The position numbers were made by a program, and so were the translations under genes. DNA of 64,000 nucleotides from Stropharia rugosoannulata (lineage: Eukaryota; Basidiomycota; Agaricomycetes; Agaricales; Strophariaceae): assembly GCA_028532985.1 (NCBI GenBank), contig JANCIK010000005.1, forward strand, positions 688,501 to 752,500, read 5' to 3'. This document shows, in pieces, positions 6,155 through 33,500 of the stretch. Each line of letters opens with the position of its first letter. The first letter of the stretch is position 1. Below the pieces are notes generated by a model. The model was not told where the DNA came from. It ran no database searches and saw only the letters and a list, made by a program, of their open reading frames with translations.

Positions 6155-6157
6155 ACG

Positions 6158-8318: not shown

Positions 8319-8333
8319 AAACGGTCGGGAAAG

Positions 8334-10792: not shown

Positions 10793-11756
10793 TGTGAGGG
10801 GCTGGGGCTGGCCCCTCGTGAAAACAAGAATAACCATAAGGTTTACAACATAGATACACAAGAAGCGACATATCAGCCATAACGATCGGAAACTACTATC
10901 GGAAACTGAAAGAACAAGAAGAAGCACGAAATATGAAGACTGAGATATGAAGATGCAAGTTTATTCAAGATATGAAATATGTACATGATGAAACAAGAAG
11001 ACAAGCACAAGGAAGACTCAAGATGTTATTACAACTCAATGGCAGATCAAGAAAGACAACAGCATCAGAGTAATATTGGACTTCTGATGCCGACAACATC
11101 AGATCAATATTAACAATCTGATGTAACTATGGACCCACAAGGAAGTCAATCACATGGAAATACTCATACATACGACCTGGGACAACAATGGTGACGGATT
11201 CCGAAGATATGCAAGGGTTTCCGACGACATGCAGGCGTGTGGTAGCAGAAAGCAGAAGAATCTCGACACAAACACAAGGGACATAGGTGTGGAGAGAGGG
11301 TTGGAGGAGATGTATATTTAGGGGTGAACATGGAGATGATCCGGCCACAGGAAGATTTCTTGTGCTTGGGCTTGGTTTCCGAAGATAAGGAAATTTGTGG
11401 CCAAGATATGAAGCATGCTGTAGTGCAGCATGGTTTCCGACGAGATAAAATCAGCACGGGCGGTCGGATCTTCGTGGATGTATATGGTACGATCTGGGCA
11501 TGGCAACCAGACGGGTATTTAAGGAGTAGAATATCTCTGTACTTCTGCAGCTTCCTTCAGGGTTAAATTCCACCTACACACATCATACCAGTTCGCATCG
11601 GAAACCGTTGTATAAACCTCATACACTGGAAGCTCCTTGTTATAAAACAAGTAAAACCTTTTCAACGTGCTATCGTTGTACACACGTTGCCTTCGCACAT
11701 TGTGAACTATAGAGACAGGCTTTTCAGACCAGTCCAACCCAACTACGCACCTCACA
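10793..11756 (+). repeat. LTR, copy 2 (inside the tandem array)
   Basis: It has the same ends as the outer LTRs and is preceded by the same Plavaka sequence (GACGTGGGTCGT). That shows it is part of a copied unit and not an independent insertion. Confidence 0.95.
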
Positions 11757-11945
11757 ACGTGGAGCCCACCGCAAGGGTCTACAGTTCACAATAGATCCGT
11801 CTGTTCCAGACCGTCGGATAACTCGTCAACTTGCTGCAGAATTTGCTATACCCTACAACCTCCTGAAGCGCCCATCAAGAGAAGAAGGAAAAGACCGACA
11901 CCGTCAGGAAGCCAAATATCTTCAGTACTCAGCCATATATCAGAA

Positions 11946-13885: not shown

Positions 13886-13928
13886 CGGATTTTCCAGAAT
13901 CCCGACTGAATTAAAACGGTCGGGAAAG

Positions 13929-15363
13929 ATGTTCATGTTAAATATAGTGCACAAGAAACGACATGAACAGCAAGAGAAGGATATTCCTTCAGCACTATCA
14001 TTTGGACGATTTATAACTCCCTTATTTGCGGCAAGAATAGATGATGAAAGAGGATCATCATACCATGAAATATACCCTACTAATTTTAATTTTGAAGTTT
14101 CGGCTAGATTTATCGGCCAATGTTTACAGAAGACTTATGCTTACTCTTTTCAACAAAGAGCACTAATAATAAAAGCCAGGAAGAAATATAAACCTGTGGC
14201 AAGACGGACGTTTCCTGTGTCAACTACACTTCCCGAAGAATATCGTGTTATTAGAAGAATTCCATCGGATCCTCTGGCTAATATGAAACCGTTACCTTTT
14301 AAAGTGGACCATATTGAACCAGGAATACGCTATACTAAAGAACGAATGGACGCCTGGAACATAAATGAAGATGGCTTCTTGACACCGGATGAAGCTCGTC
14401 TAGTTCAATGGATCATTAAAGAACATGAGATGGGATTCGCCTGGAATGAGATGGAGAAAGGTGCCTTCAGAGAAGACTATTTTGAACCTCTAAAGATACC
14501 CGTTGTACCACATGAACCATGGGCGGAAAACCGATACCGATACCTCCAGGCATCGCTAAAGAAGTCACGAGAATTTTTCAAGATAAGGTCGCAAGCAAAG
14601 TATATGAGCCTTCTAGTTCACCTTATCGGTCAAGGATCTTATATGTGCCAAAGAAAAGCGGAGCAATACGGGTAGTGCATGACCTGAGAAGGTTGAATGC
14701 AGTAACCATAAAAGACTCAGCTCTACCGCCAGTTGTAGAACTTTATGCGGAATCTTTCGGTGGAAGAACTATCTATGCCATGTTTGATTTGTTTGTAGGA
14801 TTTGACCATCAGGTTCTTCATCAAGATTCAAGAGATTATACTACGTTCTCTTCGCCTATCGGAAACCTGAGATTGACCCGTCTACCACAAGGATTTACAA
14901 ATTCGGTTCAAGTCCAACAGGGCGATGTGTCATTTATCTTGGAGCCTGAGATTCCTGAATTTACGGCACCTTTTGTGGATGATGTACCGGTCAAAGGACC
15001 ACGATCTTATTATCAAGATGAGAATGGGGTCTATGAAACGATTTCCGAAAACCCTGGTATCAGAAGATTTGTCTGGGAACACTTGAAAAATGTACACCGC
15101 ATTATTCAAAGGATACAGCATGCTGGAGGAACCTTCAATGCCTCGAAATCCTTTTTGGCTGTACCAAGAATTAATGTTGTTGGCCATATGTGCAGCATCC
15201 AAGGAAGGACGGTTGATGAGTCAAAAGTCAGAGTTATCAGGATTGGAAACCTTGTGAAAACTTGACAGAAGTTCGCTCATTCTTGGGAACATTGGGTGTA
15301 ATGCGTATCTTTATAAAAGATTATGCAATGCATTCAAGACCGTTAACTGAACTAACAAAGAAG
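13929..15363 (+). pseudogene. pol 5' part (RT), unit 2 copy, truncated
   Basis: Same content as unit 1. A lost A near 14529 (GGAAAACC against GGAAAAACC) splits the frame, and another indel near 15240 ends it. The copy stops at the junction to unit 3. Confidence 0.85.
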
Positions 15364-16383
15364 TCTACTATTGCCGCTGGAGAGAAAGAATTACTGACTT
15401 TTGAAAGTGCTCTAAAGGTGAGTAATTTCCATTCTCATAACAATTTTATTCTGTATTCTGTACACATTTCTAGGAGTACCAGAAAGTTACATCAAACCCA
15501 TCGAAAGCCTGGGACTTTCCAAAGGCTCATACACATCAGCACATGTTCGAAGATATACGCAACAAGGGAGTCACGTGAAACTACAATACCAAACCTAGTG
15601 AAAAGGCAAATGGACCACTAAAAAAATATTACCAGCGGCACACAAACTTCAAGCATGTAGCAAAACAGGTGAGTTCACAGTTTAATTTTATTATTATACC
15701 GTCTACATAACATAGTATTAATGTGTCAAATGTCACTTATTTACAGATTCTTGCGGTCAATGAAATGGATGTTATATCTGCAATGATACGATCCGATATT
15801 ACGATGTATGATGCAGCAATAGAGATGCTGGAGGAATTGAAAGAGGATCATGGACCGCAGAATGCCACTTTGGAAGACTCCGAGGACTTGTCTATTGCGG
15901 ATTCACAGCAGGAATCTGACACGGGTGCCCATGTAGATTCCCGTATGACACACGGGTCTTCTTTGCCGCCGTGTTCAATTTCCGACCTAGTGAATGCACA
16001 TGCCGGCGATGTCGCTTACGGATCTTCGCAAGAAGTTGATTTGTGCTCTTTCAATTAAACTTAATGTTGCCAGGATCCCACTTCAAGATTCTGATATGGT
16101 ATGTTTGTATATTAACTACGGGAATGCTTGACTAAAGTTAGCTAATAAGGTCACACCTTATCAATATCTCAAAGCAACATTTACATCAGTTGTAGACTGG
16201 CGAAACAACACAAACATTATAAGAGCCAATAAGCTCTTTCACAATAAGCCAAGATATGATTTTGCTCTTGTGAAGGTCGATGATGAACTTTGTATCTTTG
16301 TTCAGGTCATCTTTATCCTTCAGATCACCTATCAGTCAAAACATCATTTTATGGCTCTAGTCCTCCCATATGACGTGGGTCGT

Positions 16384-17346
16384 TGTGAGGGGCTGGGGCT
16401 GGCCCCTCGTGAAAACAAGAATAACCATAAGGTTTACAACATAGATACACAAGAAGCGACATATCAGCCATAACGATCGGAAACTACTATCGGAAACTGA
16501 AAGAACAAGAAGAAGCACGAAATATGAAGACTGAGATATGAAGATGCAAGTTTATTCAAGATATGAAATATGTACATGATGAAACAAGAAGACAAGCACA
16601 AGGAAGACTCAAGATGTTATTACAACTCAATGGCAGATCAAGAAAGACAACAGCATCAGAGTAATATTGGACTTCTGATGCCGACAACATCAGATCAATA
16701 TTAACAATCTGATGTAACTATGGACCCACAAGGAAGTCAATCACATGGAAATACTCATACATACGACCTGGGACAACAATGGTGACGGATTCCGAAGATA
16801 TGCAAGGGTTTCCGACGACATGCAGGCGTGTGGTAGCAGAAAGCAGAAGAATCTCGACACAAACACAAGGGACATAGGTGTGGAGAGAGGGTTGGAGGAG
16901 ATGTATATTTAGGGGTGAACATGGAGATGATCCGCCACAGGAAGATTTCTTGTGCTTGGGCTTGGTTTCCGAAGATAAGGAAATTTGTGGCCAAGATATG
17001 AAGCATGCTGTAGTGCAGCATGGTTTCCGACGAGATAAAATCAGCACGGGCGGTCGGATCTTCGTGGATGTATATGGTACGATCTGGGCATGGCAACCAG
17101 ACGGGTATTTAAGGAGTAGAATATCTCTGTACTTCTGCAGCTTCCTTCAGGGTTAAATTCCACCTACACACATCATACCAGTTCGCATCGGAAACCGTTG
17201 TATAAACCTCATACACTGGAAGCTCCTTGTTATAAAACAAGTAAAACCTTTTCAACGTGCTATCGTTGTACACACGTTGCCTTCGCACATTGTGAACTAT
17301 AGAGACAGGCTTTTCAGACCAGTCCAACCCAACTACGCACCTCACA
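16384..17346 (+). repeat. LTR, copy 3 (inside the tandem array)
   Basis: It has the same ends and the same Plavaka flank. It differs by single-base losses at CpG positions, for example CCGGCC to CCGCC near 16933. Confidence 0.95.
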
Positions 17347-17535
17347 ACGTGGAGCCCACCGCAAGGGTCTACAGTTCACAATAGATCCGTCTGTTCCAGA
17401 CCGTCGGATAACTCGTCAACTTGCTGCAGAATTTGCTATACCCTACAACCTCCTGAAGCGCCCATCAAGAGAAGAAGGAAAAGACCGACACCGTCAGGAA
17501 GCCAAATATCTTCAGTACTCAGCCATATATCAGAA

Positions 17536-19512
17536 ATGGATCACGGAATCGAAGCAAACCCTTTTGAAGTTCAAACCGTGGTGCCCAAAGTCAAGCCTTA
17601 CCCAAATCGCAACTCAAAAGATGCTCCATCGTTTACAGGACCCACTACTCCTTTACATCGATACCTAGAGGACATCGAGGAATTATGCAAAGACAGGAGA
17701 CACATCGGATATCACACGGATTACAAAAACCCTGTGGTATGTGGATTACCGATACCACGAAACATGGAAGAATATTCTAGATGAAAACAAATCCTGGAAG
17801 GAGAATAAACAAATATTACTGGAATATTTCCCTGGGTTGGATTTGCTCTACAAATACTCAGTCAACGATCTGCATAAATTAATACAGAAGTTTTCGAGCA
17901 AACCCATGGATAATCAAGAACTTCTAGCAGAATATCATTGTGAATTCATGATTATAGCTTCTTATCTGGAGAAGGAGCAATTATCATCAAGAGACGACAT
18001 CAACAGAAACTATGTTCTAGGTCTTCCAAAAGAATTCAGGGCGAAGGTTCTTACTCAATTAACGGCTGAAGACCCGAAGCGGAAACCGGGCCTGGTTCAT
18101 GATTATCTTCAAGTTAATCGAGCGGCTCGATATGTTCTTCAAGATAACGCTTATTCTGACAGGTATGGCCTTGAAGACACACCTCGTGAACGGACGAAAA
18201 CCGAAGAAACTGCTCTTGAGCTCATGCTAAGGAAAATGACATCGGAATTAGGATCAATAAAGATGTTTATGCAAGGCCAACCTAATACATCTTTTCCGAC
18301 GCAAGAAAGACCTATGTATCGTTCCACTCCGCTCGCCCTGGTTGCTTGTTTTGCGGAGACATTAATCATATTATGAGGTCTTGCAACTTGCCGGATGAAT
18401 TTATAAACAAGGGAATCATCAAACAAGGACCGAATGGTAGATTCACAATGGCTAACGGCGACTGGATCAATGGAACTGGAACAATAAAAGAAAGGATTGA
18501 AAACATCCTCAAACTGCAACGTGCTCGAGATGTACCCCCTCACCTGTCGCCAGCTACCACAATGATGTTTTCCTGTACTACGGCTGAAACCTTGTTTAAT
18601 TCTTCCAGTAAACTCGAAGAAGTCGACGAAGAAATCGGTGAGGTTTATCTGAAGACAAGGTCTTCGCCCCAAGACAAACCTGGACCAGGCAAAAACTCAT
18701 CTGCTTATGAAAAAGTCCCTGAAGTCGTGATTGCCGAAAGGAAATCGGAAAAGACAATACCAGAAGCACATGTAAGATTTGAACCGGCTAAAGGACCCCA
18801 GTACAGATTCACCTCAGGAGCGGAAAATCTGGATCTTCTTAAGAAAGTCATATCAAAATCTTTGGATGCAGAAATTACTATTTCTCAAAGAGAGTTGTTG
18901 GCTATTTCTGGAGAACTTCAGAAATATTTCAAGGAAACAACTACACCAAAGAGAATTCCGACGGTTAGCTATGTCCATGGCGAAGAAAATGAAGGGTCTT
19001 ATGTGCTACAATTTGCTTCGGAAAATGGGCCATCAGATAGAGTCCTTTTGACGGCTTCTCCCCTTATGAAACTCAGGGTGATACCCGCGTTGCTAAACGG
19101 TGAATTCACGGCGGAATGTGTCTTGGACCAAGGATCGGAAATCATGGCAATGGACAAGCGCATATGGAGAAAACTGTCTCACAATATAAACCCAGAAAGG
19201 AAAATATATATGGAGTCTGCCAACACGGAATTATCGCAAACGGACGGAATGTGCGAAAACCTTAAAATCACTATTGGAAGCCTTGAACTCTATTTTCAAG
19301 TACATGTCGTGGATAAAGCCCCTTTTCAAGTTCTGATAGGACGACCGTTCTTTGTGTATACTGGGTGCACTACTAGGGATTATACAAATGGCGACCAGGA
19401 AATTACTTTGACTTGCCCCAACACGCAAAAGGTGGTTACTATTCCAACTCAGCCCAGGAACAAGGTTTCCGAAAAAGAGTTAGCGGATTTTCCAGAATCC
19501 CGACTGAATTAA
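17536..19512 (+). pseudogene. gag-protease, unit 3 copy
   Basis: Breaks near 17697 (shortened G run) and 18335 (CGCTCGCCC). From 18346 the frame is open to 19512, covering zinc knuckle, spacer and protease and ending ...FPESRLN. This is the best view of the natural end of the gag-protease frame. It overlaps the RT frame by about 100 nt. Confidence 0.88.
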
Positions 19513-20963
19513 AACGGTCGGGAAAGATGTTCATGTTAAATATAGTGCACAAGAAACGACATGAACAGCAAGAGAAGGATATTCCTTCAGCACTATCATT
19601 TGGACGATTTATAACTCCCTTATTTGCGGCAAGAATAGATGATGAAAGAGGATCATCATACCATGAAATATACCCTACTAATTTTAATTTTGAAGTTTCG
19701 GCTAGATTTATCGGCCAATGTTTACAGAAGACTTATGCTTACTCTTTTCAACAAAGAGCACTAATAATAAAAGCCAGGAAGAAATATAAACCTGTGGCAA
19801 GACGGACGTTTCCTGTGTCAACTACACTTCCCAAAGAATATCGTGTTATTAGAAGAATTCCATCGGATCCTCTGGCTAATATGAAACCGTTACCTTTTAA
19901 AGTGGACCATATTGAACCAGGAATACGCTATACTAAAGAACGAATGGACGCCTGGAACATAAATGAAGATGGCTTCTTGACACCGGATGAAGCTCGTCTA
20001 GTTCAATGGATCATTAAAGAACATGAGATGGGATTCGCCTGGAATGAGATGGAGAAAGGTGCCTTCAGAGAAGACTATTTTGAACCTCTAAAGATACCCG
20101 TTGTACCACATGAACCATGGGCGGAAAAACCGATACCGATACCTCCAGGCATCGCTAAAGAAGTCACGAGAATTTTTCAAGATAAGGTCGCAAGCAAAGT
20201 ATATGAGCCTTCTAGTTCACCTTATCGGTCAAGGATCTTATATGTGCCAAAGAAAAGCGGAGCAATACGGGTAGTGCATGACCTGAGAAGGTTGAATGCA
20301 GTAACCATAAAAGACTCAGCTCTACCGCCAGTTGTAGAACTTTATGCGGAATCTTTCGGTGGAAGAACTATCTATGCCATGTTTGATTTGTTTGTAGGAT
20401 TTGACCATCAGGTTCTTCATCAAGATTCAAGAGATTATACTACGTTCTCTTCGCCTATCGGAAACCTGAGATTGACCCGTCTACCACAAGGATTTACAAA
20501 TTCGGTTCAAGTCCAACAGGGCGATGTGTCATTTATCTTGGAGCCTGAGATTCCTGAATTTACGGCACCTTTTGTGGATGATGTACCGGTCAAAGGACCA
20601 CGATCTTATTATCAAGATGAGAATGGGGTCTATGAAACGATTTCCGAAAACCCTGGTATCAGAAGATTTGTCTGGGAACACTTGAAAAATGTACACCGCA
20701 TTATTCAAAGGATACAGCATGCTGGAGGAACCTTCAATGCCTCGAAATCCTTTTTGGCTGTACCAAGAATTAATGTTGTTGGCCATATGTGCAGCATCCA
20801 AGGAAGGACGGTTGATGAGTCAAAAGTCAGAGTTATCAGGGATTGGAAACCTTGTGAAAACTTGACAGAAGTTCGCTCATTCTTGGGAACATTGGGTGTA
20901 ATGCGTATCTTTATAAAAGATTATGCAATGCATTCAAGACCGTTAACTGAACTAACAAAGAAG
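19413..20963 (+). pseudogene. pol 5' part (RT), unit 3 copy, open but truncated
   Basis: The RT frame is open without a break from 19413 to the junction and on into Plavaka-derived sequence up to 21221 as a chance fusion. RT landmarks: SGAIRVVHDLRRLN, MFDLFVGFDH (motif A Asp), LPQGFTNS, and FVDDV as the catalytic box. It lacks RNase H and integrase. Confidence 0.88.
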
Positions 20964-21981
20964 TCTACTATTGCCGCTGGAGAGAAAGAATTACTGACTT
21001 TTGAAAGTGCTCTAAAGGTGAGTAATTTCCATTCTCATAACAATTTTATTCTGTATTCTGTACACATTTCTAGGAGTACCAGAAAGTTACATCAAACCCA
21101 TCGAAAGCCTGGGACTTTCCAAAGGCTCATACACATCAGCACATGTTCGAAGATATACGCAACAAGGGAGTCACGTGAAACTACAATACCAAACCTAGTG
21201 AAAAGGCAAATGGACCACTAAAAAAATATTACCAGCGGCACACAAACTTCAAGCATGTAGCAAAACAGGTGAGTTCACAGTTTAATTTTATTATTATACC
21301 GTCTACATAACATAGTATTAATGTGTCAAATGTCACTTATTTACAGATTCTTGCGGTCAATGAAATGGATGTTATATCTGCAATGATACGATCCGATATT
21401 ACGATGTATGATGCAGCAATAGAGATGCTGGAGGAATTGAAAGAGGATCATGGACCGCAGAATGCCACTTTGGAAGACTCCGAGGACTTGTCTATTGCGG
21501 ATTCACAGCAGGAATCTGACACGGTGCCCATGTAGATTCCCGTATGACACGGGTCTTCTTTGCCGCCGTGTTCAATTTCCGACCTAGTGAATGCACATGC
21601 CGGCGATGTCGCTTTACTGATCTTCGCAAGAAGTTGATTTGTGCTCTTTCAATTAAACTTAATGTTGCCAGGATCCCACTTCAAGATTCTGATATGGTAT
21701 GTTTGTATATTAACTACGGGAATGCTTGACTAAAGTTAGCTAATAAGGTCACACCTTATCAATATCTCAAAGCAACATTTACATCAGTTGTAGACTGGCG
21801 AAACAACACAAACATTATAAGAGCCAATAAGCTCTTTCACAATAAGCCAAGATATGATTTTGCTCTTGTGAAGGTCGATGATGAACTTTGTATCTTTGTT
21901 CAGGTCATCTTTATCCTTCAGATCACCTATCAGTCAAAACATCATTTTATGGCTCTAGTCCTCCCATATGACGTGGGTCGT

Positions 21982-22946
21982 TGTGAGGGGCTGGGGCTGG
22001 CCCCTCGTGAAAACAAGAATAACCATAAGGTTTACAACATAGATACACAAGAAGCGACATATCAGCCATAACGATCGGAAACTACTATCGGAAACTGAAA
22101 GAACAAGAAGAAGCACGAAATATGAAGACTGAGATATGAAGATGCAAGTTTATTCGAAGATATGAAATATGTACATGATGAAACAAGAAGACAAGCACAA
22201 GGAAGACTCAAGATGTTATTACAACTCAATGGCAGATCAAGAAAGACAACAGCATCAGAGTAATATTGGACTTCTGATGCCGACAACATCAGATCAATAT
22301 TAACAATCTGATGTAACTATGGACCCACAAGGAAGTCAATCACATGGAAATACTCATACATACGACCTGGGACAACAATGGTGACGGATTCCGAAGATAT
22401 GCAAGGGTTTCCGACGACATGCAGGCGTGTGGTAGCAGAAAGCAGAAGAATCTCGACACAAACACAAGGGACATAGGTGTGGAGAGAGGGTTGGAGGAGA
22501 TGTATATTTAGGGGTGAACATGGAGATGATCCGGCCACAGGAAGATTTCTTGTGCTTGGGCTTGGTTTCCGAAGATAAGGAAATTTGTGGCCAAGATATG
22601 AAGCATGCTGTAGTGCAGCATGGTTTCCGACGAGATAAAATCAGCACGGGCGGTCGGATCTTCGTGGATGTATATGGTACGATCTGGGCATGGCAACCAG
22701 ACGGGTATTTAAGGAGTAGAATATCTCTGTACTTCTGCAGCTTCCTTCAGGGTTAAATTCCACCTACACACATCATACCAGTTCGCATCGGAAACCGTTG
22801 TATAAACCTCATACACTGGAAGCTCCTTGTTATAAAACAAGTAAAACCTTTTCAACGTGCTATCGTTGTACACACGTTGCCTTCGCACATTGTGAACTAT
22901 AGAGACAGGCTTTTCAGACCAGTCCAACCCAACTACGCACCTCACA
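21982..22946 (+). repeat. LTR, copy 4 (leads into the full-length pol)
   Basis: It is 965 bp with the same ends and the same Plavaka flank. It is the 5' LTR of the only unit that continues into complete pol. Confidence 0.95.
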
Positions 22947-23136
22947 ACGTGGAGCCCACCGCAAGGGTCTACAGTTCACAATAGATCCGTCTGTTCCAGA
23001 CCGTCGGATAACTCGTCAACTTGCTGCAGAATTTGCTATACCCCTACAACCTCCTGAAGCGCCCATCAAGAGAAGAAGGAAAAGACCGACACCGTCAGGA
23101 AGCCAAATATCTTCAGTACTCAGCCATATATCAGAA

Positions 23137-25090
23137 ATGGATCACGGAATCGAAGCAAACCCTTTTGAAGTTCAAACCGTGGTGCCCAAAGTCAAGCCTT
23201 ACCCAAATCGCAACTCAAAAGATGCTCCATCGTTTACAGGACCCACTACTCCTTTACATCGATACCTAGAGGACATCGAGGAATTATGCAAAGACAGGGG
23301 AGACACATCGGATATCACACGGATTACAAAAACCCTGTGGTATGTGGATTACCGATACCACGAAACATGGAAGAATATTCTAGATGAAAACAAATCCTGG
23401 AAGGAGAATAAACAAATATTACTGGAATATTTCCCTGGGTTGGATTTGCTCTACAAATACTCAGTCAACGATCTGCATAAATTAATACAGAAGTTTTCGA
23501 GCAAACCCATGGATAATCAAGAACTTCTAGCAGAATATCATTGTGAATTCATGATTATAGCTTCTTATCTGGAGAAGGAGCAATTATCATCAAGAGACGA
23601 CATCAACAGAAACTATGTTCTAGGTCTTCCAAAAGAATTCAGGGCGAAGGTTCTTACTCAATTAACGGCTGAAGACCCGGCGGAAACCGGCCTGGTTCAT
23701 GATTATCTTCAAGTTAATCGAGCGGCTCGATATGTTCTTCAAGATAACGCTTATTCTGACAGGTATGGCCTTGAAGACACACCTCGTGAACGGACGAAAA
23801 CCGAAGAAACTGCTCTTGAGCTCATGCTAAGGAAAATGACATCGGAATTAGGATCAATAAAGATGTTTATGCAAGGCCAACCTAATACATCTTTTCCGAC
23901 GCAAGAAAGACCTATGTATCGTTCCACTCCGCGCTACGCCCCTGGTTGCTTGTTTTGCGGAGACATTAATCATATTATGAGGTCTTGCAACTTGCCGGAT
24001 GAATTTATAAACAAGGGAATCATCAAACAAGGACCGAATGGTAGATTCACAATGGCTAACGGCGACTGGATCAATGGAACTGGAACAATAAAAGAAAGGA
24101 TTGAAAACATCCTCAAACTGCAACGTGCTCGAGATGTACCCCCTCACCTGTCGCCAGCTACCACAATGATGTTTTCCTGTACTACGGCTGAAACCTTGTT
24201 TAATTCTTCCAGTAAACTCGAAGAAGTCGACGAAGAAATCGGTGAGGTTTATCTGAAGACAAGGTCTTCGCCCCAAGACAAACCTGGACCAGGCAAAAAC
24301 TCATCTGCTTATGAAAAAGTCCCTGAAGTCGTGATTGCCGAAAGGAAATCGGAAAAGACAATACCAGAAGCACATGTAAGATTTGAACCGGCTAAAGGAC
24401 CCCAGTACAGATTCACCTCAGGAGCGGAAAATCTGGATCTTCTTAAGAAAGTCATATCAAAATCTTTGGATGCAGAAATTACTATTTCTCAAAGAGAGTT
24501 GTTGGCTATTTCTGGAGAACTTCAGAAATATTTCAAGGAAACAACTACACCAAAGAGAATTCCGACGGTTAGCTATGTCCATGGCGAAGAAAATGAAGGG
24601 TCTTATGTGCTACAATTTGCTTCGGAAAATGGGCCATCAGATAGAGTCCTTTTGACGGCTTCTCCTTATGAAACTCAGGGTGATACCCGCGTTGCTAAAC
24701 GGTGAATTCACGGCGGAATGTGTCTTGGACCAAGGATCGGAAATCATGGCAATGGACAAGCGCATATGGAGAAAACTGTCTCACAATATAAACCCAGAAA
24801 GGAAAATATATATGGAGTCTGCCAACACGGAATTATCGCAAACGGACGGAATGTGCGAAAACCTTAAAATCACTATTGGAAGCCTTGAACTCTATTTTCA
24901 AGTACATGTCGTGGATAAAGCCCCTTTTCAAGTTCTGATAGGACGACCGTTCTTTGTGTATACTGGGTGCACTACTAGGGATTATACAAATGGCGACCAG
25001 GAAATTACTTTGACTTGCCCCAACACGCAAAAGGTGGTTACTATTCCAACTCAGCCCAGGAACAAGGTTTCCAAAAGAGTTAGCGGATTT
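23137..25090 (+). CDS. gag: Gag with CCHC knuckle fused to aspartic protease (unit 4, frame restored by eye)
   Basis: The frame is open from ATG 23137 to 24705. It breaks at a CCCG/CCG difference near 24687 and continues as 24668-25090. Residues 1-230 are the capsid-like helical part (KYSVNDLHKLIQKFSSK, LPKEFRAKVLTQLT). About residues 268-281 are the zinc knuckle CLFCGDINHIMRSC (CX2CX4HX4C), which binds packaged RNA. A charged spacer follows, then a retropepsin-like domain with LDQGSE as the active-site loop (usual form D-T/S-G) and FQVLIGRPF near its end. In the unit 3 copy this frame ends just past the protease, so gag and protease share one frame and RT does not. The open frame extends about 60 codons upstream of this ATG (basic cluster KRRRKRP) but has no ATG there. 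Confidence 0.88.
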
Positions 25091-28000
25091 TCCAGAATCC
25101 CGACTGAATTAAAACGGTCGGGAAAGATGTTCATGTTAAATATAGTGCACAAGAAACGACATGAACAGCAAGAGAAGGATATTCCTTCAGCACTATCATT
25201 TGGACGATTTATAACTCCCTTATTTGCGGCAAGAATAGATGATGAAAGAGGATCATCATACCATGAAATATACCCTACTAATTTTAATTTTGAAGTTTCG
25301 GCTAGATTTATCGCCAATGTTTACAGAAGACTTATGCTTACTCTTTTCAACAAAGAGCACTAATAATAAAAGCCAGGAAGAAATATAAACCTGTGGCAAG
25401 ACGGACGTTTCCTGTGTCAACTACACTTCCCGAAGAATATCGTGTTATTAGAAGAATTCCATCGGATCCTCTGGCTAATATGAAACCGTTACCTTTTAAA
25501 GTGGACCATATTGAACCAGGAATACGCTATACTAAAGAACGAATGGACGCCTGGAACATAAATGAAGATGGCTTCTTGACACCGGATGAAGCTCGTCTAG
25601 TTCAATGGATCATTAAAGAACATGAGATGGGATTCGCCTGGAATGAGATGGAGAAAGGTGCCTTCAGAGAAGACTATTTTGAACCTCTAAAGATACCCGT
25701 TGTACCACATGAACCATGGGCGGAAAAACCGATACCGATACCTCCAGGCATCGCTAAAGAAGTCACGAGAATTTTTCAAGATAAGGTCGCAAGCAAAGTA
25801 TATGAGCCTTCTAGTTCACCTTATCGGTCAAGGATCTTATATGTGCCAAAGAAAAGCGGAGCAATACGGGTAGTGCATGACCTGAGAAGGTTGAATGCAG
25901 TAACCATAAAAGACTCAGCTCTACCGCCAGTTGTAGAACTTTATGCGGAATCTTTCGGTGGAAGAACTATCTATGCCATGTTTGATTTGTTTGTAGGATT
26001 TGACCATCAGGTTCTTCATCAAGATTCAAGAGATTATACTACGTTCTCTTCGCCTATCGGAAACCTGAGATTGACCCGTCTACCACAAGGATTTACAAAT
26101 TCGGTTCAAGTCCAACAGGGCGATGTGTCATTTATCTTGGAGCCTGAGATTCCTGAATTTACGGCACCTTTTGTGGATGATGTACCGGTCAAAGGACCAC
26201 GATCTTATTATCAAGATGAGAATGGGGTCTATGAAACGATTTCAAAACCCTGGTATCAGAAGATTTGTCTGGGAACACTTGAAAAATGTACACCGCATTA
26301 TTCAAAGGATACAGCATGCTGGAGGAACCTTCAATGCCTCGAAATCCTTTTTGGCTGTACCAAGAATTAATGTTGTTGGCCATATGTGCAGCATCCAAGG
26401 AAGGACGGTTGATGAGTCAAAAGTCAGAGTTATCAGGGATTGGAAACCTTGTGAAAACTTGACAGAAGTTCGCTCATTCTTGGGAACATTGGGTGTAATG
26501 CGTATCTTTATAAAAGATTATGCAATGCATTCAAGACCGTTAACTGAACTAACAAAGAAGGACGTTGAATTCACATGGGGACAAAGAGAACAAGAAGCAA
26601 TGGACAGTTTAAAGCGTCTCTTAATTCAGTCTCCCGCACTAACGGCATTGGACTATGAATCCGAAGGACAGATCATAATGGAGGTGGACTCAAGCAACAT
26701 AGCCGTGGGTTTTATTTTATCTCAGGTTAAAGAAGACGGAAAGGAACATCCTGCGCAGTTTGGTTCGATAACTTGGAACGAAAGAGAATCAAGATACTCA
26801 CAAGCCAAGATCGAGTTATATGGCCTATTTCGCAGCCTTAGAGCGTATCGGATATACCTGGTTGGAGTGGAAAACTTGATAGTCAGGACTGATGCGAGTT
26901 ACCTCAAGGGAATGTTAAACAACCCCGATACACAACCTAATGCTACGATAAATCGCTGGATAGCCGCCATACTTTTGTTTGACTTCAAGCTAGAACACGT
27001 CCCTGGAAAATCACATTCACCAGACGGTCTGTCAAGAAGGAGACGATCAGAATTAGATCCTCAAGAAGATTCCGAAGAAGAAGTAGAAGACTGGATCGAC
27101 AGGGCATGCGGCTTCGGAATCTGGGTCTTAAACAAAAATGACGATCGGAAATTCACTCACATGTCCATGGTACAGAAGAAAATACCAGGATCGTCATTGT
27201 CTTACAAGGCTATGGTACTTATTGCAGCTAAATCGATACCTCACCGTGCGGAAATTACTACAACGCTTAAGTTACCGGTTTCCGACAGAGGGGCTGACAT
27301 GGATGAGGAATTAAAGAAGGTCAAAGAATTTCTAGGCGACCCCGAAAGACCCGCATGGATTCGCACAAGAAAGGAGTACGACCGCTTCCTCAAGAAAGTA
27401 AGGCAATTCTTCATACTGGATGGAAAGTTATGGAAAAGGTCCGACGATGGTGAACATAAACAAGTGATACAACAAGAAGATAGGCTTCGGATACTTCAAG
27501 AAGTACACGATAACTTAGGACATAAGTCTTATTTCACTGTGTGGAATAGGCTCACGAAGCGTTTTTGGTGGCCTAACATCAGTAATGATCTTACGTGGTA
27601 CTTGAAAACTTGCGATATATGTCAGCGACAGTCAAGGGTAAAAAACCTCATTCCGCCAACAGTAGCTCGTCCATTGTCGCTATTTGTCAAGGTTCACGCG
27701 GATACTTTCTTTATGCCCAAAGGAAAAGGGGGAAAACATCTCTGTCTTCATCTACGATGTTCACTTTCGGGAATGCCTGAAGCTCTGGCTGTAGCGTCGG
27801 AAAACCATACGGTTATAGGAGAATTTCTGTTGGATGTTATGTCGCGATGGGGAGCTATGGCTGTTATCGTGACAGACAATGGTACACCTTGGGTTAAAGC
27901 CGTGAACTATTTGGCGGAAAAATATGGAATCTACCACATCAGGATTTCGGGATATAATTCGCAGGCAAACGGCTTGATTGAAAAACGACATCTCGATGTT

Positions 28001-28660
28001 AGGGAAGCAATAGTCAAGACTTGTGAAGGCGACTTATCAATATGGCCATTAATTCTCCGATTTGTTTTATGGGCTGAATGTGTTACGGTACAAAAATCAA
28101 CAGGTTATACTCCCTACTATATCGCGCACGGGGTGGAACCGTTATTCCCATTTGACATCACAGAAGCAACCTTCATGTTTCCCGATCAAGTTGATATGAT
28201 TTCCGAAGAAGAGCTAATAGCACGAAGAGCTATAATGCTGCAGAAGCGACCGGAGGATCTTGAAAGGGTCAAGGACAAAGTGGAGCAAGCACGGCTGAGG
28301 CAAGCTCGTTATTTTGAACAATACAATAAGCATCGCATCGTGTTACAAGACTTCGCACCAGGTACTTTGGTCCTAGTCAGAAATTCACCAGTTGAAAAAT
28401 CACTTGATCGGAAAACAAAACCGCGATACTTTGGGCCTCTAATGGTGTTACGACGAACGAAAGGGGGGTCTTACATCTGTGCTGAACTCAGTGGAGCCGT
28501 ATCCTACAAGAGATTCGCCGCATATCGCCTAATACCTTATATATCAAGAGAACCGCTGGAAATACCATGGGAACTATTATCTCAACCCAAGGATCTAATT
28601 GAAGGCATGGTACGAGAAGAGGTACCAGAGGACTCGCAAGTGGCGCCTGATGATGAATAA
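25072..28660 (+). CDS. pol: Pol: reverse transcriptase, RNase H, integrase (only full-length copy)
   Basis: RT runs from about 25700 to 26520 (VVHDLRRLN, MFDLFVGF, LPQGF, FVDD at about 26169-26180). The connection and RNase H follow to about 27040 (MEVDSSNIAVGFILSQ, QAKIELYGL, VRTDASYLKG). Integrase starts with an H-H-C-C zinc domain near 27505-27635 (VHDNLGHK ... CDICQRQ). Its core acids lie in HADTFF, VIVTDNGTPW and NGLIEKRH (D,D35E-like). The tail near 28335-28500 has PGTLVLVRNS and KPRYFGPLMVLRR, a GPY/F-type module. No chromodomain is seen, so targeting must differ from chromoviruses. The frame is broken once near 26243, where this copy reads TTTCAAAACC and the others TTTCCGAAAACC, and near 25313-25370. 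Both are probably consensus errors. Stop TAA is at 28658-28660. Confidence 0.9.
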
Positions 28661-28918
28661 CAAGTTTCCGAAAACGCTTACACAACTTAAATTTCTTATT
28701 GGAGCTTCAACAGTTTCAAGTTCATTTCTTCTCATTTGTTAAATAAACTCTTTTTCTTTTAGGTTATGTTTCTGTTTTTACAAGATTATGAAATTATGGT
28801 TGTCAAACTAAAATACGCATGGCCAAGACAATTTATTGATTACAAGATATTATGACAACTGGTTTCCGACGAAGGGTGAATGGAAATACGACAAGAAGAA
28901 ATACATATAAATTCCCTT
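28661..28918. other. gap between pol stop and antisense gene 5 stop
   Basis: It holds AATAAA-like sequence (AAATAAACTC near 28741) and T-rich sequence on the plus strand, and the end of the convergent gene on the other strand. No further gene is seen. Confidence 0.5.
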
Positions 28919-29913
28919 TTACTTCCTGCGGAACCTTTTGACTTCCCCGGAGATTTTACGGATCTCCTCAATGCACTCCATCGATAATTCCACCAGATCG
29001 CGAAGTCGATTTTCCATATCGGAATAATGTCGCAAGTTTCTGTCGCAGAGGTCGTCCAGCTCTTCAAGCCCATTTGTCGGGTCGGCAGTCGTTTGCCATT
29101 CGCGGAAATCTCGCACCAACTGTGTATATGGCGCATACGATGGTAAACCTTCGACAGGTCCGCTAGTACTTGTGCTGGGGCTGGAACGCGTAATACCTGT
29201 ACAATACGGTTGCCGAAACTGTTGATGATAGGAAATTGCATTTACTTACCTGAGGTTCCTTCGCCAACATCCTTTTGGTTCGCGACAATGGTATCTGTGT
29301 ACTCGAAAGCGTGCATAGCGTCATAATAGGGAAGAGGGCCGTCATCCTCAATGCGCATAGGGCTCGTGGGCGCGTCGTGGAGGGCTGCTGTGTTGGCCTC
29401 GTCATTTTCTTCGAGTTCGTCTACTTCCTCGTCATCATCGTCCTGGTTGCTGTCGCTCTTGTCATCGCTCTCTTCTTCGGGATCTGGGTGGACGGTACGG
29501 AACCGTCGGTCGTATGAGAAGTCGCTACCGGCTAGGGCGCAAGTCAAGAAGTCGCCCGGGTGTTGTTTCTAAATTACGGATGAAGTTATCAGCATGAAAA
29601 ACGACCGAAAACAATTACCAGAAACTTACACATTCGGCAGTATTATTGCTGCAATTCTTTTTGTCAACCTTGCAGTTGGTACACGCCCTGCTCCAGCGAG
29701 GTGTGTAGCGCAAGGTACACATGTAACCGGGGTGATTTTTGCACCAAGAACATATCTGGATCAATGGTTAATAAAACAGACATTCATTACTCCATGGCTA
29801 CTTACTTGCTCGTATTCGTACCATCCTTCAGCGAGACCAAGGATTTGAGGGGCGGCCCAGCGCATGTCGACTTCGTGTGTAGACGCAGGACGAGCAGTAC
29901 GACGAGGAGGCAT
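28919..29913 (-). CDS. antisense gene 5: Cys-rich, acidic protein, four exons (276 aa)
   Basis: I do not recognise this protein. Exons on the minus strand are 29913-29806, 29755-29630, 29568-29250 and 29196-28919; all joins are in phase with GT/AG introns. It starts MPPRRTARPAS. Exon 2 has two Cys clusters, CSWCKNHPGYMC and CTNCKVDKKNC, a Cys6 layout (CX2CX7C, then CX2CX6C) resembling a fungal Zn-Cys DNA-binding module, so zinc and nucleic-acid binding are plausible (inference). Exon 3 holds a strongly acidic stretch (EEESDDKSDSNQDDDDEE). The C-terminal exon looks helical or coiled-coil (ENRLRDLVELSMECIEEIRK) and ends in basic residues. A TATA box (TATAAAAGCC) lies at 29976-29985. The gene converges on pol, 258 bp from its stop. 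It is inside the retroelement but opposite to its transcript, so its introns survive retrotransposition. Confidence 0.75.
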
Positions 29914-29975
29914 TATTGGGAAGGGAGATGGAGGAGGGAAGGAAAGAATAGTGAAAGTATGAGTGGAATGGGCGG

Positions 29976-29985
29976 GCTTTTATAT
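29976..29985 (-). promoter_or_regulatory. TATA box of antisense gene 5
   Basis: TATAAAAGCC on the minus strand lies 63 bp upstream of the ATG and within 50 bp after the stop of antisense gene 4. Confidence 0.6.
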
Positions 29986-30024
29986 TCTTCTAGGACTGTG
30001 GTTCTGCACGTTTTCGGATATCGG

Positions 30025-30460
30025 CTAGCTTGGATTGGGTACGGCATCATGCGCGGATGGCACTACGAAGAAACCGATAGAATGCTGTGGATTCTTCTCT
30101 ATGACTCGGTCCTGTATGTTGGACAATTGGGCTGCCTTTACTGGAACTGCGATAACTTCGACGCGAATCTTGTTCGGATTTTCTATTTTTAGGTCGGAAA
30201 TCACCGTGGCTCTTGTTCTGGAAAGCGGCGTTGCCTAATCAAGTATGACGGCGTGATGGCGCCGGGTTTATGGTGACATGCCGTGCTGCTTTAGGAAATG
30301 GCGATACCTCTTTGGTCTGCTGTCGGGTTGTTGTTGCGGCAATGCTCTGGGCCGCGGAGTTTTCAACTGGCATTTTCGGCTGTGATGGCGCATGTGTAAG
30401 CTGGGCGGCATGTTCAGTCTTACTGCATCTTTCATTTTCATTCGGCTCTTTTCGCATCAT
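30025..30460 (-). CDS. antisense gene 4: small unrecognised protein, two exons (120 aa)
   Basis: Exon 1 is 30460-30308 and exon 2 is 30234-30025. The 73-nt intron (GTATCG...TTGATTAG) joins in phase 0. Exon 1 encodes a polar, low-complexity N-terminus (MMRKEPNENERCSK). Exon 2 encodes a more ordered part (VISDLKIENPNKIRVEVIAVPV, then IGFFVVPSAHD). A TATA-like ATTATA on the plus strand at 30492-30497 (TATAAT on the minus strand) is 32-37 bp before the ATG. I do not recognise a family. The clean splice phase and amphipathic C-terminal half support coding. The product could also be a short regulatory or structural protein of the element; nothing shows which. Confidence 0.55.
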
Positions 30461-30525
30461 ATGACAGCGTCAAAATTGTGTGCGGAAATCTATTATAATG
30501 GGTTTACATCTATGAGCAGTTGTAT

Positions 30526-31036
30526 CTACGGCTGATTGGCTTGTCTCTCAATCCAGTCCCTCCATCTCTCTACTCCATCTATGGTGAAGTCAGTCTCACA
30601 CAAGTAGCAGTGGCGGAAACCTTGCGACTGCTTCTCAGCTGCTTTGAGTAGGCTTAATGCCTTATCCTGCTCGCTGTCTACAAGAACGGCTCCGTATTCG
30701 CTCATGATCCGGCGAAGCAAGAGTAATGTCCACGATGACCGGGGTCGAAATTGTTTCGCGGTTATGTGATCTTCAAAATGGTCATTCTGTGCAGAATATG
30801 GACTGTCAATTGGGTTTGATTTCAACAGGTCAAGTGGGACAACTTACAATGTAATGGCACAGGGCGGCAAGTGTCCGATGTGTTTCCATCGTGTCTGCTG
30901 CGGAACGAGGTAGCATTTGATCGGATAACAATTGGTCTATGGTGGGCTGTATGGCATGCTCTAGGACCTGCATGATGTCCGCTGGATTCTTCACAGCTGT
31001 GGTCAATAATGCGGTGAATCGAGTGGTGGTGCTCAT
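30526..31036 (-). CDS. antisense gene 3: small unrecognised protein, probably two exons
   Basis: Exon 1 (31036-30848) encodes 63 residues, MSTTTRFTALLTTAVKNPAD... to ALCHYI, followed by a GTAAGT donor. Exon 2 (about 30802-30526) is open in a frame reading SPYSAQNDHFEDH ... CYLCETDFTIDGVERWRDWI and ends TAA-like at 30526. With the obvious donor and acceptor the two frames do not join (one base off), so either a base is missing in this assembly or the protein stops early (about 69 residues). A single CYLC pair is the only motif. TATAAAAG on the minus strand (31067-31074) lies 31-38 bp before the ATG. No family recognised. Confidence 0.55.
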
Positions 31037-31066
31037 TTCTGGTGTTGGACAGACTAGTTGCCTTTC

Positions 31067-31074
31067 CTTTTATA
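31067..31074 (-). promoter_or_regulatory. TATA box of antisense gene 3
   Basis: TATAAAAG on the minus strand is 31-38 bp upstream of the ATG at 31036. The spacing matches antisense genes 1, 2 and 4. Confidence 0.65.
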
Positions 31075-31178
31075 CAGTTTTCAGGCGCTGGGCTACTTGG
31101 CATTGGATGATCTGGACGCATGGGTACATGTCACTTGTCTGGAGATTATCTAGCTATTTTCCGACAGCCGGTTGCTGG

Positions 31179-31667
31179 TTATGGGTCGCCTACTCTGCAC
31201 ACACATGCCTGTTGATACTGGAAGAAAACGTCGTCCATACGCTCTTTGATTTCGGGAATCTCGTGCCCGGTGTATCCAAAGGTCATCGTCATGTACCGCA
31301 TACGCATTAGCACTCTCAATTCGACCATGGTGATTTGCTCGCTAGGCGATAGATGTATGGCTACATGCTGGCGACCACGCCATGCTATATACTATGATTG
31401 TGTTAGGGCGGCACGTCACCTGAAGAAGTTGCTTACTGCTATGGTTTGTCCTAGGAACAAGAAGGACCGGAGATCGGTTATGACAGGCTGCAAGTTGATT
31501 GTATCAAGCTGGAGTATTCGTGTGTATTCGTATTCTAGGGCTTCGACGAAGGGATCAAGGCAATGTTTGAAGACATATGGGATCGGAAATCGCGATCGGA
31601 AATCGTTTAGATCGGTGGGCAACTCAAGCACTAATGATTGAAGATATAGACGTAAAGGCGCTTGCAT
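31179..31667 (-). CDS. antisense gene 2: unrecognised protein, two exons (147 aa)
   Basis: Exon 1 is 31667-31437 (77 codons) and exon 2 is 31391-31179 (70 codons plus stop). The 45-nt intron has a GTAAGC donor, a CCCTAAC branch-like site and an ATCATAG acceptor, and joins in phase 0. The protein starts MQAPLRLYLQSLVLELP and looks mostly helical. Exon 2 is Met-rich (VLMRMRYMTMTFGYTGHEIPEI). Its TATA box (31705-31712) overlaps the TAA stop of antisense gene 1. An open frame in the same phase extends upstream to 31754, so a fusion with gene 1 through a missing base is the alternative reading. I do not recognise a family. Confidence 0.6.
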
Positions 31668-31704
31668 TGCGGGTGCTATGGAACTATCTACTTGTGCTCT
31701 ACGC

Positions 31705-31712
31705 TTTATATA
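31705..31712 (-). promoter_or_regulatory. TATA box of antisense gene 2, overlapping the stop of gene 1
   Basis: The minus strand reads GAG ATG GAT ATA TAA AGC. The stop codon of antisense gene 1 lies inside TATATAAA, 38 bp before the ATG of gene 2. Confidence 0.5.
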
Positions 31713-32449
31713 TCCATCTCTCGCACCGATGTTCGGAATCTGGCATGCGGACATTGGGTGGGCACGGCCGTTTGAAGATGAAAGATCGCCGCTGGAATTT
31801 CTTCGATATCTGATGTGTCTTCAGGTGTCGCGGCTGGCCTGAATGCAGGCAGGTGTTCTTCAAGGGGGTCTTCGGCTTTGACGCGGTTTGAAAACTGTAT
31901 CCACCACCGACTGTTGCTGTCTAGTTCATTATATTCTTTGAAGTCGACTTGGTTTTCTTTGGTCGCGTCAGCAGTGTCTTCAGCATATAGCGCCATGAAC
32001 CGCAATATGGTCGACCAATATTCGAACCCTTCATGATCCTCCATCGGAAACATCTCCAGTAACTGCCTGGCACTTGCGCTTAGGTAGCGGCATTCAGGTG
32101 GAATCATACGCTCAATTTCACGCTCATTTGACGGCCGCATGTTGACGCGAGAGCATAGCAATAAGCGCTGCGCTATCATTAGCAGGGCTAGCTGTGAAAC
32201 GGTTCGAGGGCTTACCATGTGATCAAGGTGATCATGAACGTACGCTTCCACTTGCGCATGGTCGATTATGTTCAGTTCTCGTACGCTGCGAGTGCGGATG
32301 TCCTTGTAGATGGCGAGGCACAGGATTTCATGTTGGTGACGGATGGACAACGCAAATTCACGCATGGTCGTTGGTACCACGAATGCATGGCTTCGGTTTC
32401 CTGGAGCAAAACAGAGCGAGCGAAATATTCTTTCTGCTGCGGGGTCCAT
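31706..32449 (-). CDS. antisense gene 1: unrecognised helical protein, single exon (247 aa)
   Basis: The start is MDPAAERIFRSLCFAPG at 32449 and the stop is TAA at 31706; no intron is needed. The chain looks helical and charged (FALSIRHQHEILCLAIYKDI, VSQLALLMIAQRLLLC) with an acidic C-terminal part (TPEDTSDIEEIPAAIFHL). There is no recognisable motif. A TATAAATT box on the minus strand at about 32482-32488 lies 34-39 bp before the ATG, and the purine tract and 3' LTR begin 70-90 bp upstream. The open frame extends further upstream to 32623 inside the LTR, but the TATA position and the family pattern of short leaders favour the start at 32449. Expression would be antisense to the retroelement genome. 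Confidence 0.65.
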   Translation of the reverse strand: MDPAAERIFRSLCFAPGNRSHAFVVPTTMREFALSIRHQHEILCLAIYKDIRTRSVRELNIIDHAQVEAYVHDHLDHMVSPRTVSQLALLMIAQRLLLCSRVNMRPSNEREIERMIPPECRYLSASARQLLEMFPMEDHEGFEYWSTILRFMALYAEDTADATKENQVDFKEYNELDSNSRWWIQFSNRVKAEDPLEEHLPAFRPAATPEDTSDIEEIPAAIFHLQTAVPTQCPHARFRTSVREMDI

Positions 32450-32481
32450 GGTGCTTGATGGCGACGACGCTTTTGGCTGAA

Positions 32482-32488
32482 ATTTATA
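32482..32488 (-). promoter_or_regulatory. TATA box of antisense gene 1
   Basis: CCTATAAATT on the minus strand lies 34-39 bp before the ATG at 32449 and about 50 bp from the LTR boundary. Confidence 0.6.
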
Positions 32489-32519
32489 GGTTTCCGACCA
32501 CCCAGGAGGGTGGTATTTT

Positions 32520-32535
32520 AAAAGTTGGGGGGAGA
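32520..32535 (+). promoter_or_regulatory. polypurine tract next to the 3' LTR
   Basis: AAAAGTTGGGGGGAGA ends immediately before the TGTGAGG start of the 3' LTR. That is the expected place for the plus-strand primer of reverse transcription. Confidence 0.7.
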
Positions 32536-33500
32536 TGTGAGGGGCTGGGGCTGGCCCCTCGTGAAAACAAGAATAACCATAAGGTTTACAACATAGATAC
32601 ACAAGAAGCGACATATCAGCCATAACGATCGGAAACTACTATCGGAAACTGAAAGAACAAGAAGAAGCACGAAATATGAAGACTGAGATATGAAGATGCA
32701 AGTTTATTCGAAGATATGAAATATGTACATGATGAAACAAGAAGACAAGCACAAGGAAGACTCAAGATGTTATTACAACTCAATGGCAGATCAAGAAAGA
32801 CAACAGCATCAGAGTAATATTGGACTTCTGATGCCGACAACATCAGATCAATATTAACAATCTGATGTAACTATGGACCCACAAGGAAGTCAATCACATG
32901 GAAATACTCATACATACGACCTGGGACAACAATGGTGACGGATTCCGAAGATATGCAAGGGTTTCCGACGACATGCAGGCGTGTGGTAGCAGAAAGCAGA
33001 AGAATCTCGACACAAACACAAGGGACATAGGTGTGGAGAGAGGGTTGGAGGAGATGTATATTTAGGGGTGAACATGGAGATGATCCGGCCACAGGAAGAT
33101 TTCTTGTGCTTGGGCTTGGTTTCCGAAGATAAGGAAATTTGTGGCCAAGATATGAAGCATGCTGTAGTGCAGCATGGTTTCCGACGAGATAAAATCAGCA
33201 CGGGCGGTCGGATCTTCGTGGATGTATATGGTACGATCTGGGCATGGCAACCAGACGGGTATTTAAGGAGTAGAATATCTCTGTACTTCTGCAGCTTCCT
33301 TCAGGGTTAAATTCCACCTACACACATCATACCAGTTCGCATCGGAAACCGTTGTATAAACCTCATACACTGGAAGCTCCTTGTTATAAAACAAGTAAAA
33401 CCTTTTCAACGTGCTATCGTTGTACACACGTTGCCTTCGCACATTGTGAACTATAGAGACAGGCTTTTCAGACCAGTCCAACCCAACTATGCACCTCACA
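32536..33500 (+). repeat. LTR, copy 5 (3' outer LTR)
   Basis: It is 965 bp and preceded by a purine tract. Near its end it has TATGCACC where the other copies have TACGCACC, a CpG-to-TpG change. It is followed by TCGT and the Plavaka transposase C-terminus. Confidence 0.95.

Follow-up and report, generated by a model that had tools for sequence, protein, structure and literature searches.

Can a gypsy retrotransposon carry a set of intron-containing genes on the strand opposite to its own gag and pol, and what would such genes do for the element? The question is raised by a 64,000-nucleotide stretch of Stropharia rugosoannulata DNA (contig JANCIK010000005.1, positions 688,501 to 752,500; hereafter the window), for which an original prediction, made from the letters alone, proposed five antisense genes between pol and the 3' long terminal repeat (LTR) of a gypsy element. 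All five minus-strand frames, here named A to E, were found in this place; pol ends at 28660 and the frames occupy the 3.9 kb that follow, before the 3' LTR (Table 1). Four of them are supported as genes maintained by selection, the element is strewn with a short word, TCGGAAA, that is preserved across copies, and the product of gene E is a candidate reader of this word.

Four antisense genes are retained across copies of the element

A search of the whole 48-Mb genome with protein A gave 34 matching pieces, which were grouped into 27 places including the window, and the cassette of antisense frames was compared between the window and the 26 other copies in the same genome. Genes A to C are present at these 26 other places, with C as fragments alone in copies c06 and c17 and with gene A split by ~3 kb in c24. 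Gene E could be aligned in 24 other copies (in c24 over 107 bases only) and was found in neither c06 nor c17. With the window counted, the frame is open in 17 of 26 aligned copies for A (c24 left out), 22 of 27 for B, 21 of 27 for C and 18 of 25 for E. These four are antisense open reading frames (ORFs) between pol and the 3' LTR that are kept in most copies, which does not hold for D.

Three of the genes splice cleanly in phase, B and C with one intron each and E with three (four exons); gene A, read here as one exon, may hold an in-frame intron. The GT..AG splice sites are retained in 26 of 27 copies for B, in 25 of 27 for C and in 24 of 25 at each of the three introns of E (window counted). 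Mean intron identity to the window is 71-82% for E, 93% for B and 89% for C, and intron length in gene E varies by at most 3 bases across copies. The paired LTRs, the order of the pol domains and the splice sites kept across copies bear out the proposal of a gypsy element carrying antisense genes with introns.

Pooled pairwise ratios of nonsynonymous to synonymous substitution (dN/dS) are 0.128 for A, 0.235 for B, 0.259 for C and 0.189 for E, and become 0.126, 0.187, 0.228 and 0.228, respectively, when CpG transitions are masked. Left out of these estimates were c24 for A, c09 and c16 for B, c06 and c17 for C, and c07, c20, c23 and c24 for E. As a control, the same exons read on the opposite strand gave a dN/dS of 0.19-0.39 in the frame with coinciding third positions and of 0.65-2.4 in the other two frames. 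The dN/dS of 0.13-0.26 in the antisense frames and the preservation of the splice sites show that purifying selection acts on A, B, C and E as protein-coding genes. Two of the points on which the original prediction was staked, other copies with the frames (up to 26 of them) and purifying selection across copies, were borne out for these four.

The fifth frame, D, was rejected as a gene, which reduces the proposed five genes to four. Under a model with an intron at 30307-30235, an open D frame with its start is present in the window and in four of 24 other copies (c02, c03, c13 and c22), making 5 of 25. Most other copies have common in-frame stops or frame shifts in D, many of which are not of the CpG-decay type, and the region is without a TATA box. 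Its DNA is nevertheless among the best conserved of the cassette, with a mean identity to the window of 97-98% over 30061-30260. As D lies just upstream of E and its DNA is well kept, it may be a control region of E.

Each of the four genes is preceded by its own TATA box (Table 1), and the stop codon of A shares bases with the box of B. Elsewhere on the antisense strand of the cassette there is only one further TATA box, and ~9% of random 80-bp stretches on this strand contain one. Transcription would presumably start at the antisense TATA boxes, and with a TATA box for each gene the tight packing needs no shared transcript.

Predicted products of the antisense genes

The original prediction recognized none of the products, and database comparisons agree with it. 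Pfam has no family for A, B, C or E (E searched up to an E-value of 5) and gave a chance-level match to DUF6099 for D (E-value 0.24). In a collection of 5.8 billion proteins, whose fungal coverage was unchecked, no homologue of A or E was found at an E-value of 0.001; B, C and D were not searched. Structure prediction, which had been proposed for every product, was carried out for A only, and the AlphaFold model (nine copies, 87-98% identical) was uninformative, with a predicted local distance difference test score of 34.

Exon 2 of gene E encodes six cysteines spaced 2-7-11-2-6, a Gal4-like array, and an acidic stretch lies downstream in exon 3. Gal4-type Zn2Cys6 clusters have the spacing C-X2-C-X6-C-X5-12-C-X2-C-X6-8-C and bind sites that contain CGG triplets. 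Across the genome the zinc exon of E is matched 26 times, at 25 places, and 25 of the matches are stop-free; full-length matches are 88-100% identical, and the damaged copy c23 is 53% identical. In five aligned copies the six cysteines are invariant and the acidic part diverges.

A family-specific word recurs along the element

The word TCGGAAA, or TTTCCGA on the other strand, occurs 30 times in the 11.5-kb element (21982..33500). With one LTR counted there are 24 occurrences against 2.7 expected from trinucleotides, which is a ~9-fold excess. They are divided 10 and 14 between the strands, and their presence on both strands fits a site in double-stranded DNA better than a signal in RNA. To lessen circularity, words were ranked in the cassette and 3' LTR alone, and gag-pol was kept as a test. 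TCGGAAA was the top 7-mer of the cassette and LTR (13 vs 1.06 expected, P ~1e-10) and was again over-represented in gag-pol (10 vs 1.66 expected, P 1e-5). The 30.4-kb right flank has six occurrences vs 3.8 expected, and the gag-pol regions of two other families have two and none.

The sites are also better preserved than comparable DNA. All comparisons of motif conservation took the window copy as reference. Across the 26 other copies, the 14 motif sites in the cassette and LTR are 92% intact vs 58% for 474 control heptamers that carry a CpG at the same position as the motif (permutation p <1e-5). Local heptamers within 60 bp are 72% intact (p 0.002 against the motif) and CpG heptamers within 250 bp 65%, and among 16 non-redundant copies the values are 90% for the motif and 56% for the control. 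The 10 gag-pol sites, followed in five copies (one covering 35%; a sixth contributed no gag-pol sites), are 96% intact vs 79% for the control (p 0.025). CpG sites vary between copies far more often than other bases, and the CpG was kept in 330 of 346 cells at motif sites and in 4723 of 6037 at other CpGs. TCGGAAA is a family-specific word that runs across LTR, gag, pol and cassette and is preserved as if by selection.

At three places two sites of the same orientation lie exactly 13 bp apart (22075/22088, 31583/31596 and 32629/32642), one in each LTR and one where gene B begins.

Antisense proteins and words in sibling families

Sibling gypsy families of the same genome have pol proteins ~51, 46, 45 and 40% identical to that of the window element (53 of 430 candidates scored). 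The family with the ~40%-identical pol (F39, represented by locus L063) has, as estimated from the sampled loci, a region of ~6 kb between pol and LTR. Its first antisense protein (L063:5559-6014) has 101 genomic matches with identities down to 38%, 18 of them with stops, and its second (L063:2564-2839) has 94, two of them with stops. Pairing was tested with 96 of the first-protein and 88 of the second-protein matches, short or duplicate pieces having been dropped. At 74 of the 88 places of the second protein the first lies 1.5-5 kb upstream on the same strand, at 72 of them 2.8-3.2 kb upstream; random placement gave a mean of 0.5 and a maximum of 4 in 500 draws. For the position relative to pol, the pol ends with at least 69% identity were used (94 of 150, minus one duplicate piece). 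At 81 of the 88 places the second protein has a pol end on the opposite strand at a distance of 0.5-6 kb; at none of the 88 does a pol end on the same strand come within 6 kb, and seven have no opposite pol end in range.

The proteins of the siblings are unlike those of the window. No relation of note between A-E and the sampled sibling regions was found by tblastn (best E-value 0.06), the first F39 antisense protein has no homologue in the 5.8-billion-protein collection (fungal coverage unchecked), and ten antisense frames of sibling families gave weak Pfam matches only, the best of them, Transposase_24 (E-value 0.009), under the cut-off. With two F39 antisense proteins placed against pol and different from A-E, the arrangement extends beyond the window element: at least two gypsy families of this genome regularly carry several antisense genes together, and their proteins are unlike. 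Plain ORF counts in the sibling families were not taken as evidence because the sense strands there also hold long ORFs.

F39 has a word of its own, TGCGCGC, with 53 occurrences vs 7.9 expected in cassette and LTR and 27 vs 8.3 in gag-pol (P 2e-7); its flank has five vs 4.1, and the gag-pol regions of the other two families have none. A further family, F40, favours words like CCGGGC and ACCGGG.

Several other observations were made at the sibling loci. The antisense region of F40 has a six-cysteine array, CAACLLLG...CTPCIVRKSTTFPC, at ~4464 of L062 (element orientation), and another (CNWC...CLRCKTMKVKC, L063:9819-9956, plus strand) lies beyond the F39 element and is weakly like exon 2 of E (tblastn E-value 0.07). 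Family F51 has a tandem array further along. A repeat-rich stretch at L057:2480-5260, ~2.2 kb downstream of an F51 pol, holds GCCGAGA and CAGGTGC ~20 times each, and similar DNA occurs at C11:2490336-2493228 and C7:1745472-1747359.

What the antisense genes may do

For the role of the cassette, the reading to which we give most weight, at somewhat less than an even chance, is that this gypsy retrotransposon has a regulatory module of its own, in which E reads TCGGAAA in its element and keeps the element transcribable. The product of gene E would be a zinc-cluster DNA-binding protein with an acidic arm; since Gal4-type clusters bind CGG and TCGGAAA contains CGG, it is a candidate for the protein that recognizes the word. 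It might act by activating the LTR and the antisense promoters or, alternatively, by keeping DNA methylation and silent chromatin away from the element in the manner of Arabidopsis VANC, and A, B and C would be its partners. In this genome six DNA methylase and 31 TET/JBP matches exceed the Pfam cut-off, which no TET/JBP match does in any of 14 control genomes; the TET/JBP matches and the short introns also suggest a fungus, probably an agaricomycete. Together with the CpG variability between copies, these matches suggest that there is probably methylation to counter. The spread of the sites across coding sequence, the strong CpG decay and the methylase and TET matches modestly favour protection from silencing over plain activation. 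The motif work lends indirect support to the regulatory or element-protecting role among those originally proposed; nothing was found in support of an envelope or cargo role.

A wider proposal, which we regard as doubtful, is that the retrotransposons of this genome each carry an anti-silencing code. A family-specific CpG word spread across the element, coding parts among them, would be read by an antisense-encoded DNA-binding protein that shields it from methylation, word and reader would change together between families, and the system would be an independently evolved retroelement counterpart of VANC.

Several results weigh against these ideas. The reader of the motif could be a factor other than E, as no result singles E out. 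The first cysteine loop of E is one residue longer than in the usual Gal4 spacing, no Pfam zinc cluster (Zn2Cys6) matches E up to an E-value of 5, and no PDB structure matches its N-terminal 100 residues. The top 8-mer of the cassette, GTTTCCGA, replicates poorly in gag-pol (2 vs 0.32 expected, P 0.04), and over-representation is also seen for other words in the flank (ATGATCA, 19 vs 4.4 expected, P ~2e-7). In F39, compared over 2.4 kb with three other copies, TGCGCGC does not clearly surpass its controls in preservation, being 80% intact vs 68% (p 0.03) or 73% (p 0.21), depending on the control. Only two of the six top 6-mers of F40 (AGCCCG and AGCGGG) replicate in its gag-pol at P <0.001, and the first F40 antisense protein is poorly conserved (60-100%, stops in five of nine). 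The pieces of F51, F52, F46 and F45 (2-7 kb each) have no comparable scattered word.

Other explanations were weighed. E could be a plain transcription activator that drives the LTR promoter and the four antisense promoters from TCGGAAA as its upstream activating site, chromatin and methylation playing no part. The acidic stretch of E would suit this, as would the motif site at 32491, which adjoins the TATA box of A, and that at 22624, ~80 bp ahead of the TATTTAA of the LTR; the 10 sites that are over-represented and preserved within gag-pol coding sequence, far from promoters, do not, and we hold this explanation to be unlikely. Less likely again is a host factor, recruited by the element, that binds the motif while the antisense genes do other work such as nuclear entry, particle assembly or RNA handling. 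It would account for the lack of a tie between E and the motif and sits well with A, B and C having no recognizable domain and with the uninformative model of A. A host site would, however, be expected in host DNA too, and the word is about as frequent in the flank as expected and scarce in the gag-pol regions of two other families.

Two further explanations were given much less weight. That the antisense transcripts act as RNA, as double-stranded RNA that tunes or silences the element, with the proteins incidental, has a precedent in such action proposed for antisense transcripts of other elements (PMC7264820); a dN/dS of 0.13-0.26 and preserved splice sites point instead to proteins under selection and make this very improbable. 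Least probable is that the genes were captured from the host as cargo that helps the host rather than the element, because all 34 matches to A and all 26 to the zinc exon of E lie, by their coordinates, in the 27 element copies or their fragments.

Anatomy of the element and neighbouring DNA

The element in the window is 11.5 kb long and qualifies as a gypsy LTR retrotransposon by its paired TG..CA LTRs and the order gag, protease, reverse transcriptase, RNase H and integrase. Both LTRs are 965 bp long, and because they differ at only one of 964 aligned bases the insertion is recent. TCGT is common to both flanks of the element and may be a 4-bp target duplication. The gag frame has a CCHC-like knuckle, judged by eye. 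The reverse transcriptase frame of the window copy is broken off from the RNase H/integrase frame; in 11 close copies among the pol candidates scored, the RNase H/integrase stretch lies in stop-free open frames of 1122-1228 codons.

Table 1. Coordinates of the features of the element in the window.
Feature	Position	Strand	Remarks
5' LTR	21982..22946	+	965 bp, TGTGAGG...CCTCACA
gag open frame	22903..24705	+	600 codons stop to stop; PF13352 DUF4100, E-value 1e-10
Aspartic protease frame	24656..25363	+	PF13650, E-value 2.9e-5, slightly above its Pfam cut-off
Reverse transcriptase frame	25306..26370	+	PF00078, E-value 5e-5, under its Pfam cut-off
RNase H and integrase (zinc-binding domain) frame, end of pol	26075..28660	+	Pfam
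Gene E exon 4	28919..29196	-	open frame, copies, dN/dS
Gene E exon 3	29250..29568	-	acidic stretch
Gene E exon 2	29630..29755	-	C-X2-C-X7-C-X11-C-X2-C-X6-C
Gene E exon 1	29806..29913	-	open frame, copies, dN/dS
Gene E introns	29805-29756, 29629-29569, 29249-29197	-	all join in phase
TATA of E	29978..29984	-	TATAAAA; 24/24 copies holding the stretch; 71 bases before ATG
Region D	30025..30460	-	~40-480 bp upstream of TATA of E; non-conserved as protein
Gene C exon 2	30526..30786	-	CYLC motif
Gene C intron	30847-30787	-	joins in phase
Gene C exon 1	30848..31036	-	open frame, copies, dN/dS
TATA of C	31068..31074	-	38 bases before ATG; other copies (n=26): TATAAA 21, CATAAAA 4, missing 1
Gene B exon 2	31179..31391	-	open frame, copies, dN/dS
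Gene B intron	31436-31392	-	joins in phase
Gene B exon 1	31437..31667	-	open frame, copies, dN/dS
TATA of B	31706..31712	-	TATATAA; 26/26 other copies; 45 bases before ATG
Gene A, one exon	31706..32449	-	247 amino acids; open frame, copies, dN/dS
TATA of A	32482..32488	-	TATAAAT; 26/26 other copies; 39 bases before ATG
3' LTR	32536..33500	+	LTR pair comparison
TTTCCGA/TCGGAAA sites, first part	22075, 22088, 22408, 22566, 22624, 22788, 23893, 24349, 24622, 24737, 26057, 27145, 27279, 27797, 28200		
TTTCCGA/TCGGAAA sites, second part	28408, 28665, 28863, 30194, 31158, 31583, 31596, 32044, 32491, 32629, 32642, 32962, 33120, 33178, 33342		

The full element is preceded, at ~4309-21981, by three near-identical 5.6-kb units arranged head to tail. 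Each consists of an LTR (starting at 5193, 10793 and 16384), the first 3.6 kb of the element (gag to reverse transcriptase) and ~1 kb of other DNA, an extra copy of which sits before the first unit. The array suggests either that the DNA was duplicated in tandem where the element inserted or that there is an assembly effect.

Comparison with known systems and significance

Antisense genes of plant LTR retrotransposons are well documented and their function is unsettled (PMC7264820, PMC11963269). Nearest in anatomy are the plant gypsy elements of the Retand lineage, with 104 antisense ORFs in 63 clusters; like the element described here they have antisense ORFs in an extended stretch (2.9-6.6 kb) that separates pol from the 3' LTR, a predicted DNA-binding antisense product and, in about half, family-specific tandem repeats (PMC11963269). 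Retand elements differ in belonging to plants and in their TRP28 domain (PF04195), which matched none of the proteins scanned here (A-E and the ten antisense frames of sibling families); promoters for each gene and a conserved short word across gag-pol are not reported in the available part of PMC11963269. Gene23 of maize Grande and other plant antisense ORFs are alike in lying between pol and 3' LTR, with their own promoter and a nuclear product, but gene23 is a single gene of a plant element (PMC7264820); it is likened here by description. That antisense ORFs are known mainly from plants, as the original prediction had it, agrees with Retand, yet one fungal case, the only one found cited, is also known: Boty of Botrytis cinerea, a gypsy element with the antisense gene brtn (Zhao et al., 2011, as cited in PMC7264820 and PMC8365987). 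It too has one gene, belongs to an ascomycete and is likened here by description only. Among the matches listed in our literature search, which left most subscription papers outside its scope, none reported a fungal gypsy element with a cassette of several antisense genes. New here is the conserved word, specific to its family and running along the whole element, in an element with several antisense genes that each have a TATA box.

For the proposed function the closest parallel is in Arabidopsis: a VANC protein, encoded by its element, binds short motifs in elements of its own family and removes methylation there, and the target differs from family to family (PMC5735166). The window element shares with VANDAL elements a dense family-specific motif, with a different motif in related families. 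VANDAL elements differ in encoding a transposase and having no LTRs, and VANC21 has its sites in non-coding DNA, frequently within tandem repeats (PMC5735166); TCGGAAA is also found in coding sequence. DUF1985 and DUF287 are named as VANC domains (PMC5735166), and neither had a Pfam match among A, B, C and E, nor in D, which matched DUF6099 only. The element would work like VANC only if binding of E to its word holds.

An antisense regulatory gene before the 3' LTR is also known from human T-cell leukaemia virus type 1 (HTLV-1), whose HBZ gene has its promoter inside the LTR and encodes a viral basic leucine zipper protein. HBZ and retroviral transactivators share with the present proposal the antisense regulatory gene and the logic of transactivation; HBZ is a single gene. 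An antisense HTLV promoter is mentioned in PMC7264820. Fungal DNA transposons carry TET/JBP enzymes and are thought to use them against cytosine methylation, and retrotransposons reportedly lack such enzymes (PMC12730594); the counter-methylation of those transposons is enzymatic, whereas that proposed here would be guided by a motif.

With a named protein, E, and a 7-bp site, the function of antisense genes becomes a direct binding question. If it is true that E counters silencing, fungal retrotransposons would have a motif-guided counter-defence without the TET enzymes of fungal DNA transposons.

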